Shown: in pieces, positions 1,244-53,723 of the stretch | Layout: every line of letters starts with the position of its first letter | How positions within the stretch are numbered: position 1 is the first letter of the stretch | DNA from: a virus | Length of the DNA stretch: 54,027 nt | Virus record (IMG/VR): IMGVR_UViG_3300027970_000036 | Coordinates: 1-54,027 of that record | Strand: one strand, 5' to 3' | Made by a program: the position numbers and the translations under genes | Notes under the pieces: generated by a model | Told to the model about the DNA's origin: nothing | The model's database searches: none | The model's input: only the letters and a program-made list of their open reading frames with translations

Positions 1244-1561
1244 ATGAAAAAGTGTTCAACGTGTAATGAGATGAAGCCCCTCGCGGAGTACAGCGTGGTA
1301 AAGCGTAGAGGAAAGCCCTACACGCTAGCTAGATGCCGTGCGTGCAAGCGTGCTTATCAGAAGGAGTACCTGGACAAGAACCCTGCTAAACGTAAAGAGT
1401 TTGGTAATTCTAATGCGGCTGAAATAGCCCGTATGCAGTACAAAGCCAGTGAGAAAGGACGTGAGACAGCTAGGAAGCACCGTGAAGCCAACAAGGACGT
1501 GATAAATGCTAAACGGCGTGAGGCAGAGGCTAAAAAGAGGTTGAAAAGGGCTGAAGGTTAG
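1244..1561 (+). CDS. Small zinc-ribbon protein, function unknown
   Basis: This 105-aa basic protein starts at the ATG at 1244, which has AAGG eight bases upstream. An in-frame codon at 1205 lies in the promoter and is unlikely to be used. Cys4/Cys7 and Cys31/Cys34 form two CxxC knuckles, and the remainder is a Lys/Arg/Glu-rich helix. The same N-terminal ribbon precedes HNH nuclease domains in many phage proteins, but no HNH residues follow here. It may be a stand-alone nucleic-acid-binding protein or a trimmed nuclease. The promoter of the antirepressor lies inside its last codons, so the two genes are closely coupled. Confidence 0.7.
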   Translation: MKKCSTCNEMKPLAEYSVVKRRGKPYTLARCRACKRAYQKEYLDKNPAKRKEFGNSNAAEIARMQYKASEKGRETARKHREANKDVINAKRREAEAKKRLKRAEG

Positions 1562-1570
1562 CTGTATAAT
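1541..1570 (+). promoter_or_regulatory. Strong promoter for the antirepressor leader
   Basis: TTGAAA at 1541-1546, inside the end of the preceding gene, and a perfect TATAAT at 1565-1570 are separated by 18 bp. The start point would be near 1577. That gives a leader of about 120 nt before the antirepressor start codon. Confidence 0.65.
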
Positions 1571-1581
1571 GGTCTTAGAGT

Positions 1582-1678
1582 ATTTAACTAAGGGCGTTCC
1601 AGGTCTATATTAGTTAAATGCTCCTTATCTAACCCTGTTTCCCTGAGTGCTGGAACCACTTTGGAATTCAGGGTTTTT
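1582..1678 (+). ncRNA. Structured leader RNA with terminator-like hairpin before the antirepressor
   Basis: Hairpin 1: ATTTAACTAA (1582-1591) pairs with TTAGTTAAAT (1610-1619). Hairpin 2: AACCCTG plus TTCC (1631-1642) pairs with GGAA and CAGGGTT (1663-1675), followed by a T run, which is an intrinsic-terminator layout. The loop of hairpin 1 holds GTTCCAG (1596-1602), exactly complementary to CTGGAAC (1650-1656) in the loop of hairpin 2. Kissing or alternative pairing is therefore possible. This could be an attenuator, or a processed antisense RNA in the manner of c4 of P1/P7/P22. I do not see the c4 consensus itself. Confidence 0.55.
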
Positions 1679-1697
1679 TATTTTATGGAGATTCAAA

Positions 1698-2504
1698 ATG
1701 CAAGAGTTAGTAAAAGTACAACCCGTAGTAATTGGTGGCGAAGAAGTGAATGCAGTTAATGCTCGTGACTTGCACGCTCGTTTGGAAGTAAAGACAGATT
1801 TTTCTGATTGGATTAAGGGCAGAATCGCAAAATTTGACTTTTTGCAAGGTGTTGATTTTATTGATCCCGAAAAAAAAGGAACGCTAGAATCAATGACTTA
1901 CGGAAAGGGCAAAATTGAGTATTTCATCACATTGGACATGGCAAAAGAATTGTCGATGGTGGAAAACAACGAACAAGGTAAAATCGCTCGGAAGTATTTC
2001 ATCGCAGTGGAGAAAGCATTCAAGAACCAAAAACCTGTCATTCCTGAATTTCCGTTAATCCGTGAAGAATTTTACAAAACGTTGGAAGATTCATTAGCCC
2101 TTGGCTACCCTCGTCACCAAGCATTAGAAACAGCAACAGCCGCGTTTAATGGGTTTTACGGTACGGATGTGGTGAAGTACATGGGTTTCCCGAATGAAAA
2201 GACCAAGTATTACACGTTGCGTGAGATTTGGGAGTCAATTCCGTACCCTGACGACAAGTTTGAAGATGCAAAACACTGGATGATTAACGTTTTGAGATAT
2301 TATGGGTATGTCACAGAAGTATCCATCTCCAAAACAAAGAGATTTTTTGCTTGCACAACGAAGGGAGAGTGGCACTGCACTAACGTTAAAGCCAACTTTT
2401 ACGACATTGGTTGGTGTAGTTGCTTGCGTGAGGAGATTATGAGAACGCATGATGAACGCCGAGAAGAAACGCCAGCGTATGTTTTGAGGTTAGCCCGAAG
2501 ATAG
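1698..2504 (+). CDS. AntA-type antirepressor
   Basis: The start is the ATG at 1698, seven bases after GGAG. An earlier in-frame codon (1647) lies inside the leader terminator. Residues ~15-95 carry the AntA/AntB signature, with VNARDLHARLEVKTDFSDWI then FLQGVDF. That domain occurs in phage antirepressors such as those of the P1 family. The C-terminal ~130 residues are unlike anything I can name and may contact the repressor. The expected role is to inactivate a prophage repressor and switch on lytic growth. No cognate repressor is recognisable in the window. Expression is probably gated by the structured leader just upstream. Confidence 0.75.
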   Translation: MQELVKVQPVVIGGEEVNAVNARDLHARLEVKTDFSDWIKGRIAKFDFLQGVDFIDPEKKGTLESMTYGKGKIEYFITLDMAKELSMVENNEQGKIARKYFIAVEKAFKNQKPVIPEFPLIREEFYKTLEDSLALGYPRHQALETATAAFNGFYGTDVVKYMGFPNEKTKYYTLREIWESIPYPDDKFEDAKHWMINVLRYYGYVTEVSISKTKRFFACTTKGEWHCTNVKANFYDIGWCSCLREEIMRTHDERREETPAYVLRLARR

Positions 2505-45981: not shown

Positions 45982-46018
45982 GGGCAGTTTGTCAACTACC
46001 CTGTAAGTCTGGTATAAT
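45981..46018 (+). promoter_or_regulatory. Hairpin plus near-consensus promoter before the distal adhesin genes
   Basis: AGGGcAGTT (45981-45989), loop TGTC, AACTaCCCT (45994-46002) overlaps the promoter TTGTCA (45989-45994), 18 bp, TATAAT (46013-46018). The hairpin may slow upstream transcription, and the promoter restarts it for the genes from 46041 onwards. Confidence 0.65.
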
Positions 46019-46040: not shown

Positions 46041-46445
46041 ATGCAAGTATTAGACCTTAGACCACCCGCTATCACTGTAAAGTTTAGTAAGGGTTCAACA
46101 CTGAACCCCATCTTCTTTTACCTCGGAAAAGACAATTCTGTTATTGATATGACAGGGTTCACTGCCCACGCACAAGCAAGATTGTCACCCTTGAGTGAGG
46201 ACGTGCTTCCTGGCTGGGACTTGACAACAGGCAATGGTGGTTTAACCATTGTCACTGCCAATGCAGAAACACCTGACGGAATTGTTGTTGGAGCGCAAGG
46301 CGTACAGCTAAACGTTCCAAAAGAAGTTACCTCAACTCTTACCTGCAAAACAGCTGTGTTTGGCGTTGAAGTCACTTCACCCTCGGGTATCACCACTACT
46401 TTGGTGACAGGCATTTTAGAACCTGTTGTTGAGATCGTTCGATGA
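46041..46445 (+). CDS. Small beta-sandwich tail protein
   Basis: This 134-aa protein behind TAGGAG begins with MQVLDLRPPAITVKFSKGST and has a run of beta strands ending TSPSGITTTLVTGILEPVVE. The layout recalls small Ig-like baseplate or fibre-linker proteins, whose N-terminal strand fixes them to the virion. No catalytic motif is seen. It overlaps the next gene by four bases (ATGA). Confidence 0.6.
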   Translation: MQVLDLRPPAITVKFSKGSTLNPIFFYLGKDNSVIDMTGFTAHAQARLSPLSEDVLPGWDLTTGNGGLTIVTANAETPDGIVVGAQGVQLNVPKEVTSTLTCKTAVFGVEVTSPSGITTTLVTGILEPVVEIVR

Positions 46446-51663: not shown

Positions 51664-52299
51664 CTAACCAAAAACTTCAACGTACATCGCGCTTATCTCT
51701 TCTGACGCTTTCTTATCCTCAGGTAAAAGCTCAGTCACAACTTTTCCAAATTTGGCAGCTTTACGAAAAGCCACACGATCTCGAATAATAGTACGAAGCA
51801 ATGTTAATTCAGGAAACTCAACAAGGAGTGAACGCATCTCCATCAGCTCCTGTTGCCCTGTATTAGTTACTGACCGACTAGCTATAACGTAAGAACGCAT
51901 GGCAGGGTTTAGCAGTTTGGGTATTTTAACTAACTCATTGACCGTTGAGAGCGACCAAATGTCAAACTGTGATGGTTGGATAGGTGTGATGAAAACATCG
52001 GCTACAACGAGCGCAGAACGCAGTTCTTCCGAGTTCCTTCCACCTGTGTCGATAAAAATATCGCCATAGCGTGTTTTCAGGTCTGCAATATCGGCTTTGA
52101 TGTTGCCAAGTTTTTGGAGACAGGGGATTGGGTTGAGGTCGGTGTTCAAACGGAACTGTGACCAATTGTTCGCACTTCCTTGTGGGTCTGCATCAAGAAG
52201 TAATACATCGTGACCTGCATCTCTACGAAGTACCGCCAAGTTCGTAGCTAACGTTGTTTTCCCTGTACCACCCTTTTCCCCGCCGACAACAATAATCAT
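51664..52299 (-). CDS. parA: ParA-family partition ATPase
   Basis: The 211-aa protein has the deviant Walker A GGEKGGTGKTT at its N-terminus and LLDADPQGS (A' motif) at about residues 35-43. FIDTGGR (B motif) and a PIQPSQFDIWS block typical of short plasmid ParA proteins follow. It lacks the N-terminal HTH of the long (type Ia) ParA. It would form ATP-dependent patterns on the nucleoid that segregate plasmid copies. The ribosome site is AGGAG. It is divergent from the rep region. Confidence 0.93.
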   Translation of the reverse strand: MIIVVGGEKGGTGKTTLATNLAVLRRDAGHDVLLLDADPQGSANNWSQFRLNTDLNPIPCLQKLGNIKADIADLKTRYGDIFIDTGGRNSEELRSALVVADVFITPIQPSQFDIWSLSTVNELVKIPKLLNPAMRSYVIASRSVTNTGQQELMEMRSLLVEFPELTLLRTIIRDRVAFRKAAKFGKVVTELLPEDKKASEEISAMYVEVFG

Positions 52300-52454
52300 A
52301 AAAGTCTCCTGTTAATTGAGGGTAGATATTAGCACACATTTTATGGCTGTTTTTACTTTTTGGATTTTTCTTCTTTGCTTTTTTAAATTTTTCTGTTTTT
52401 TGTTTTTAAGCGCACCGCTCGCCTTTGATTTTGTTGAAGTTTTTCTGTTATAAC
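52300..52454. other. T-rich stretch between parA and the iterons
   Basis: From about 52350 to 52418 the plus strand is almost all T with short interruptions, a likely easily melted region of the origin. The parA promoter should also lie here on the minus strand. I see no clear DnaA box. Confidence 0.55.
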
Positions 52455-52560
52455 CCTACATTTTATCGGTTTCATTCCTACATTTTATCGGTTTCATTCC
52501 TACATTTTATCGGTTTCATTCCTACATTTTATCGGTTTCATTCCTACATTTTATCGGTTT
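52455..52560. repeat. Replication-origin iterons, five 22-bp copies
   Basis: Direct copies start at 52455, 52477, 52499, 52521 and 52543. The first four are full; the last diverges after 52560. The unit begins CCTACATTTTATCGGTTTC. Adjacent placement upstream of a Rep_3 gene, with a T-rich neighbour, is the standard layout of an iteron plasmid origin. Rep monomers would bind here. Confidence 0.93.
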
Positions 52561-52580
52561 GGTACTACTGGAAAATTTAT

Positions 52581-52622
52581 ATGTAGGAGTAATAATTACT
52601 ACATAAAATAAAAACTGTAGTA
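52581..52622. promoter_or_regulatory. Inverted half-iteron and palindrome in the rep promoter region
   Basis: ATGTAGGA (52581-52588) is the reverse complement of TCCTACAT at the iteron junction. TACTACA (52597-52603) and TGTAGTA (52616-52622) form a perfect seven-base inverted repeat 12 bp apart. Rep_3 dimers commonly repress their own gene through inverted half-iterons. Confidence 0.55.
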
Positions 52623-52652: not shown

Positions 52653-53723
52653 ATGGACGTTTCAAAAGAAAAGTTAGTAGTCGTAAAACACAACGACTTG
52701 ATTAAATCCGCATACAAGCTGTCGTTAGTTGAAAGCCGCATTGTTTTAGCCTGCATAGCGCAGGTGAACTCAAAAGGTACCCTATCCCACTTGGACAAGT
52801 TCTCGGTGTCGGTAGAAGGCCTCAGGGACTTATTGGATACCGACAGCGATGCTGATATGTACGCTAATCTAAAGTCTGCCCTCGTTAGACTGTCGGAACG
52901 TTGGGTAACGTTTGTTGAACCCTCAAGCCGATCAGGCGAAAGAAATACCCGATGGGTGCATTCTGTGGATTATATCCCTCAAACAGGCAGTGTTGACCTG
53001 TTCTTCGCTCCGTTTATCATTCCGTTTCTAAGCGAAATAAAAAGTAATTTTACGCAGTACAAACTTGAAAACGTTCTGAACCTACGCTCGTCTTATGGGA
53101 TACGCCTGTATGAGATTTTAAAAAGCTCGATGAGCAGCGAGGTAACGTTGACGGTAGCTTGGCTCAGGGAAACACTTGAGTTACCCGAATCGTATTCGAG
53201 GATTGATAATTTGAAAGCAAGGGTTTTGGATGTGGCTGTCGCGGAGATAAACCAGTACACCGACATGACCACGGCGTACACACAGATTAAGAAAGGTAAG
53301 AAAGTTGTGAGTTTTAAATTTGTGTTCACAATGGCTCAGAAAGTGCAACGTGCCAAACCCGTATTCAAGAAAAAGAAAGCGCAGGAGGAAAATGAAGTTG
53401 GCGGGGTTGACATGGAGGAAATCAAGAAAGCGGCACGTCCAGGTGAAACGGCATCACAGGTAGCTCAGAGGCTGGCTGAACAAGAAGTACCTGTTGCTAC
53501 GGCTATGGAAAAAATACAGTTGGGGTTAGCCAAGTACCTTGCACAAACAAAAACAACTATTGAAAAGGTGGAAGTACCTCCCGAACCGATACAAGAGCCA
53601 CGCGAGATAAAACAAAGCAAAGTGGATTACTACATAGATTTGAGAAAACAGTACGGGGAGGAGATAGATAAATCTATCCCAAAAGAGTACATAGAACATA
53701 TAAAAATGTTGGGGCTGTGGTAG
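52653..53723 (+). CDS. repB: Plasmid replication initiator, Rep_3 family
   Basis: The 356-aa protein starts behind GGGAG. Residues ~10-130 form the first winged-helix domain, with KHNDLIKSAYKLSLVESRIVL split as in Rep_3 initiators, and LACIAQVNSKG. Residues ~130-230 form the second winged helix (LENVLNLRSSYGIRLYEIL, then LRETLELPESYSRIDNLKAR). The C-terminal ~120 residues are a charged, partly disordered extension. It would bind the iterons just upstream to open the origin and recruit host replication proteins. Its dimer probably represses its own promoter. Confidence 0.93.
   Translation: MDVSKEKLVVVKHNDLIKSAYKLSLVESRIVLACIAQVNSKGTLSHLDKFSVSVEGLRDLLDTDSDADMYANLKSALVRLSERWVTFVEPSSRSGERNTRWVHSVDYIPQTGSVDLFFAPFIIPFLSEIKSNFTQYKLENVLNLRSSYGIRLYEILKSSMSSEVTLTVAWLRETLELPESYSRIDNLKARVLDVAVAEINQYTDMTTAYTQIKKGKKVVSFKFVFTMAQKVQRAKPVFKKKKAQEENEVGGVDMEEIKKAARPGETASQVAQRLAEQEVPVATAMEKIQLGLAKYLAQTKTTIEKVEVPPEPIQEPREIKQSKVDYYIDLRKQYGEEIDKSIPKEYIEHIKMLGLW

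Follow-up and report, generated by a model that had tools for sequence, protein, structure and literature searches.

A predicted transcription attenuator with complementary hairpin loops ahead of an AntA-family antirepressor gene

Antirepressors determine the waking of dormant phages, and two kinds of RNA control over them are well described: the C4/Sar antisense RNAs and IsrK. Here we ask what kind of control may be exerted by the leader of ant, an antirepressor gene of the AntA family, in a virus record of 54,027 bases. The whole of this record was analysed and is referred to below as the window. The virus is probably a phage-plasmid, since its record encodes ParA for partition and also has a replication initiator of plasmid type, the latter being closest to those of methanotroph plasmids, among others. 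The preliminary description of the leader had pictured it as an attenuator or C4-like RNA with a kissing-loop switch, and these suggestions fared differently in our analysis.

Anatomy of the ant leader

The leader begins with a sigma-70-type promoter (Table 1). When both strands of the 54 kb were scanned, only two promoters agreed with the consensus at 11 of 12 positions, the second lying at 45989-46018, just 5' of the gene at 46041. The leader promoter overlaps the 3' end of an upstream ORF (1244-1561), and transcription is expected, from the position of the promoter, to start at about 1577. The 109 nt from 1577 to 1685 fold with a z of -5.8 against shuffled sequences. Hairpin 1 has a predicted stability of -15.4 to -18.9 kcal/mol (z about -4), and its apical stem is weak and contains two G-U pairs. 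Hairpin 2 (-18.5 kcal/mol, z -3.0) runs directly into a stretch of six T residues and is among the strongest terminators of the window in a fold-based scan; a simple terminator scan missed it owing to its interior loops. Thus the strong promoter and the terminator-like hairpin of the preliminary description both stand. So does the existence of hairpin 1, whose extent, initially given as 1582-1619, proved slightly longer.

Table 1. Coordinates and supporting evidence for the ant leader, the ant gene and the plasmid-type genes of the window
Feature	Position	Strand	Evidence or description
Sigma-70-type promoter TTGAAA-18-TATAAT	1541-1570	+	TTGAAA 1541-1546, 18-nt spacer, TATAAT 1565-1570; 11/12 consensus positions
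Predicted terminated leader RNA, ~103 nt	1577-1680	+	promoter and terminator positions; ends predicted
Hairpin 1	1578-1623	+	18 pairs, 3-nt bulge 1607-1609; z about -4.2
Loop 1, GUUCCAG	1596-1602	+	fold
Linker between hairpins, 7 nt	1624-1630	+	fold
Intrinsic terminator	1631-1679	+	fold, terminator scan; hairpin 2 (1631-1675; 16 pairs, small interior loops) and U-run (TTTTTT, 1674-1679)
Terminator loop, CUGGAAC	1650-1656	+	fold; exact complement of loop 1
ant ribosome-binding site TGGAG	1686-1690	+	sequence
ant, AntA-family antirepressor, 268 aa	1698-2504	+	Pfam AntA 3.7e-23; PHROG anti-repressor Ant 1.4e-40; start codon ATG at 1698
ParA partition gene	51664-52299	minus
Plasmid-type replication initiator	52653-53723

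Because only 18 nt separate the U-run from the ant start codon, there is no space for another promoter between them. As in an attenuator, the promoter is separated from the start codon by an intrinsic terminator, and transcription of ant from this promoter needs read-through unless the terminator fails. Given this requirement, the leader would be a transcription attenuator and should release an RNA of about 103 nt. Of the earlier suggestions, attenuation is thus the one that the anatomy supports. The prefix folds of the leader contained no competing antiterminator that would exclude the terminator hairpin, so that any loop-loop contact would be expected to affect the formation or stability of the hairpins rather than to install an alternative fold.

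Complementary loops and a proposed switch

Each apical loop measures exactly 7 nt and, as the preliminary description had stated, the two are complementary throughout (7 of 7 positions, GUUCCAG and CUGGAAC). As a free duplex, the loop pair would amount to 7 bp and about -8.9 kcal/mol. Apical loops that complement each other over all of their 6-7 nt are a mark of kissing regulators, and natural examples carry interior loops or bulges just beneath the loop (PMC4878617), as do both hairpins of the leader. When the leader was shuffled 4000 times with its dinucleotide composition kept, no shuffle yielded a loop pair complementary over 7 nt, and five yielded one complementary over 6 nt. The phage itself, scanned in 7190 windows of 110 nt over its two strands, has a 7-nt loop match nowhere but in the leader. 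Since the complementarity is both exact and rare, a kissing contact between the loops is likely, and a kissing-loop switch, which is statistically unusual, is a plausible and credible reading of the sequence. Complementarities of 11-12 nt between the leader and the rest of the window are present in a number that we judge compatible with chance.

We propose, at a probability of roughly 0.45, that the leader is an attenuator of ant in which polymerase mostly terminates, an RNA of about 103 nt is freed, the loops kiss between molecules and ant is held off. Polymerase would start at the promoter and make first hairpin 1 and then the terminator hairpin, most of it halting at the U-run and releasing the two-hairpin RNA. 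Only transcripts that continue past the U-run would yield AntA; the order of the parts here is that of the anatomy, and a high termination efficiency is presumed. The complementary loops would then make a loop-loop contact. By a geometric estimate, kissing of the two loops of a single molecule as a straight 7-bp helix would be strained as long as hairpin 1 keeps its weak apical stem closed. Because the 7-nt linker joins stems of about 16-18 pairs, contact between molecules would be favoured, or at least as likely. RNA set free by a resident prophage could dock on the leaders of other copies, whether nascent or incoming, and the docked RNA would keep termination high, so that ant would stay silent both in the lysogen and upon superinfection. 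That the kiss would raise termination rather than lower it is a guess as to direction. Judged from its sequence, the leader looks like a real, well-built and unusual attenuator that serves as an off-switch for ant. An ant gene blocked by termination, with an RNA that has its own same-strand complementary partner, would represent a third RNA control of antirepressors. It would also be a very compact one, with promoter, switch and sensor within about 160 bp.

For loop-loop control of a terminator, the nearest known mechanism is, by analogy, that of the pT181 attenuator (PMC4878617). Attenuators of this type resemble the leader in having a 5' hairpin and an intrinsic terminator, with interior loops below the loop and a proposed loop-loop contact. 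Unlike in pT181, the kissing partner of the leader would be its own same-strand RNA and not an antisense RNA, and the leader has no antiterminator in its prefix folds.

Relatives, chance and independent loci

Two viral contigs, L002 and L003, were the only ones found with the same ant gene and leader. Both carry a leader identical to that of the window, so these true relatives offer no covariation to judge. L067 and L068, cousins by a 51% identical terminase, were considered as divergent relatives and rejected, as they have neither ant nor the leader. The leader arrangement was absent from about 85 other AntA leaders and from 11 annotated antirepressor loci, and comparison of the leader DNA with annotated phages gave short chance matches only. 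All collected loci were also searched for terminators preceded by a hairpin loop that complements their own, and no additional match over the full 7 nt emerged. Without the loop sequences being fixed in advance, the arrangement is therefore not general among the leaders sampled.

The leader could instead be an ordinary terminator with a stable 5' hairpin that insulates a moron-like ant, read-through being leaky and the loop match coincidental. Terminators are common between phage genes, and others were found in the window; furthermore, among about 1800 terminators (1.9 Mb), several match an upstream loop over 6 nt by chance, and the identical leaders of the only two true relatives leave no variation to compare. 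Against coincidence stands the full 7-nt match, with its absence from the shuffles and from every other window of the phage. In addition, a strong promoter precedes the terminator, which is thus not merely the end of the preceding gene, and the identical loop pair occurs in two other control regions, L059 and L276. With this evidence on its two sides, insulation is possible, if doubtful.

L059 and L276 come from searches for the loop pair itself. The pattern GTTCCAG...CTGGAAC...GGTTTTT gave 24 matches, most of them evidently due to chance. L059, a phage unrelated to this one, has a terminator of the form AAAACCUCUC-UUUAGUGU-CUGGAAC-CACUAUC-GAGAGGUUUU, with GUUCCAG upstream and a P22_AR_N antirepressor gene that begins about 20 nt beyond the terminator. 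The antirepressor of this phage is related to those of Bacteroidota phages. An AGUG/CACU closing stem is common to L059 and the window, and the search pattern specified neither this stem nor the gene. Hairpin 1 of L059 is not significant (z -0.5). Two further candidates were set aside: L074, with an antirepressor that is a 77% relative of that of L059, has a different upstream region, and the pattern match in L072 falls, in our judgement, inside coding sequence of the opposite strand.

A wider search for the loop pair, in which about 95 of the matches listed were analysed, added a single terminator case. In this locus, L276, a clear terminator carries a 7-nt CUGGAAC loop, and upstream of it GUUCCAG can, as we judge it, form a 7-nt apical loop closed by what may be a 5-bp stem; the two loop sequences can alternatively pair as one long helix. 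The L276 terminator is directly followed by a C4-shaped RNA (2180-2310, minus strand), in which an outer stem of 18 bp surrounds further hairpins (z -5.2) and for which Rfam gave no match. Among the matches listed, both with real terminators are located in phage control regions. The loop-pattern matches as such occur at an estimated density of about chance, and approximately one terminator of this kind could be due to chance, as estimated from an assumed collection size; the weight of L059 and L276 thus rests on their genomic context. Their loops, being imposed by the search pattern, are uninformative on loop variation. A broader proposal would place these loci in a class of their own, with self-complementary attenuator RNAs of the kissing kind controlling antirepressors in unrelated phages (AntA here, a P22-type Ant in L059 and the region of the C4-shaped RNA in L276). 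In such a class, the terminated RNA would sense its own concentration via the loops and set read-through into ant. We put this proposal forward tentatively and think it unlikely.

Known RNA regulators and other features of the record

By analogy of anatomy, the nearest known architecture is that of IsrK of Gifsy-1 (RF01394), in which a short terminated RNA and a read-through mRNA control a prophage antirepressor (PMC4825925). In IsrK, as in the leader, a short structured RNA ends in a Rho-independent terminator and the antirepressor operon is reached by read-through (PMC4825925). The leader thus has the promoter, the predicted terminated short RNA and the predicted read-through into an antirepressor gene that characterize IsrK, a likeness of anatomy only. 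An IsrK-like RNA would imply that the short RNA, once terminated, turns on ant translation by acting in trans on the longer transcript made by read-through. The order of parts equals that of isrK-orf45-anrP, and the antA leader of a methanotroph plasmid (Methylomagnum; L174, 1248-1436) contains the Rfam isrK and then C4 in tandem. However, the terminator of IsrK is distinct from its two hairpins and the RNA pairs with orf45, whereas in the leader hairpin 2 is itself the terminator, no orf45 or other orf intervenes, the loops are mutually complementary and the match to the ribosome-binding site is at most 5 nt. Moreover, the window has no sequence or covariance match to isrK at E up to 10; the positive control L174 was detected. 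An IsrK-like action on translation is quite unlikely. A kiss between the two hairpins of IsrK, hinted at by L174, failed across 26 isrK-like loci.

Decidedly improbable is a site of processive antitermination, either a put-like RNA or the target of a Q/N-type protein, at which polymerase would pass the terminator in lytic growth, as at the lambda late promoter. The put RNAs are about 70 nt long with two stem-loops, and putL lies directly 3' of its own promoter (PMC9378689). The leader is similar to putL of HK022 as a promoter-proximal phage RNA with two stem-loops (PMC9378689), and ant, the terminase and the structural block, with the genes between them, are all encoded on one strand. Yet put suppresses termination and is no terminator, whereas the second hairpin of the leader is one. 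Rfam gave no match of this kind, no antiterminator gene was recognised, and the loop match would be left unexplained. In addition, the TATAAT at 2566 points to a separate start for the late genes.

It is very improbable that the inverted repeats are DNA operators rather than RNA parts. AGTG-N7-CACT and GTTCCAG-N47-CTGGAAC do form dyads downstream of the promoter, but no second copy exists in the window at up to 2 mismatches, and the AGTG/CACT spacing is off by one in L059, which an operator would rarely tolerate and an RNA loop would.

Hardly credible, finally, is silencing by an antisense RNA of the C4 type that would mask the ribosome-binding site of ant: the leader sits ahead of an antirepressor and many sister antA genes carry C4 or int-alpA RNAs, but it has no C4 covariance match, no outer stem around its two hairpins, which the predicted fold places in tandem, and no antisense stretch to the ribosome-binding site region above 5 nt, as compared with 7-9 nt in C4-type antA leaders. 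We rejected it on these three counts, and the C4-like mechanism of the preliminary description is not supported. The remark made there that no C4 consensus is visible was correct. Rfam gave no match in the whole window, and the covariance search of the leader returned nothing even at the permissive threshold of E up to 10, for C4 and isrK alike; as positive controls, C4 was found in the sister AntA leaders L119, L128 and L174. C4 of P1/P7 (RF01695) and int-alpA (RF02996) share with the leader an origin in the ant leader on the same strand and a proposed role in immunity. On the differences given above, the leader is probably of another kind than the known C4 silencer RNA.

Other antA leaders contain further RNAs. 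Rfam found int-alpA in Acinetobacter antA loci, and several of these (L004, L013, L032 and similar) have, besides the int-alpA/C4-like RNA, a second terminator-like hairpin about 30 nt 5' of antA, with a loop (CTCGTTACC) exactly antisense to the ant ribosome-binding site region (GGTAACGAG). Rfam also placed sRNA-Xcc1 at 670-760 of L108 and 520-606 of L172, upstream of AntA-type antirepressor genes in both.

Three other features of the window were observed. A 36-bp tandem repeat at 1-121, inside a minus-strand ORF (1-694), differs in copy number from that of contig L002/L039, which extends upstream of the window start. Downstream of ant, the dyad CCTCACAAATTCGTTTGTGGGG (2544-2571) lies immediately 5' of the TATAAT at 2566-2571, and the next gene starts at 2579; the dyad and TATAAT are possibly the operator and promoter of the late genes. 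Lastly, translation of 52425-52586 gives a repeated peptide, FYRFHSYILS, which suggests iterons upstream of the replication initiator.
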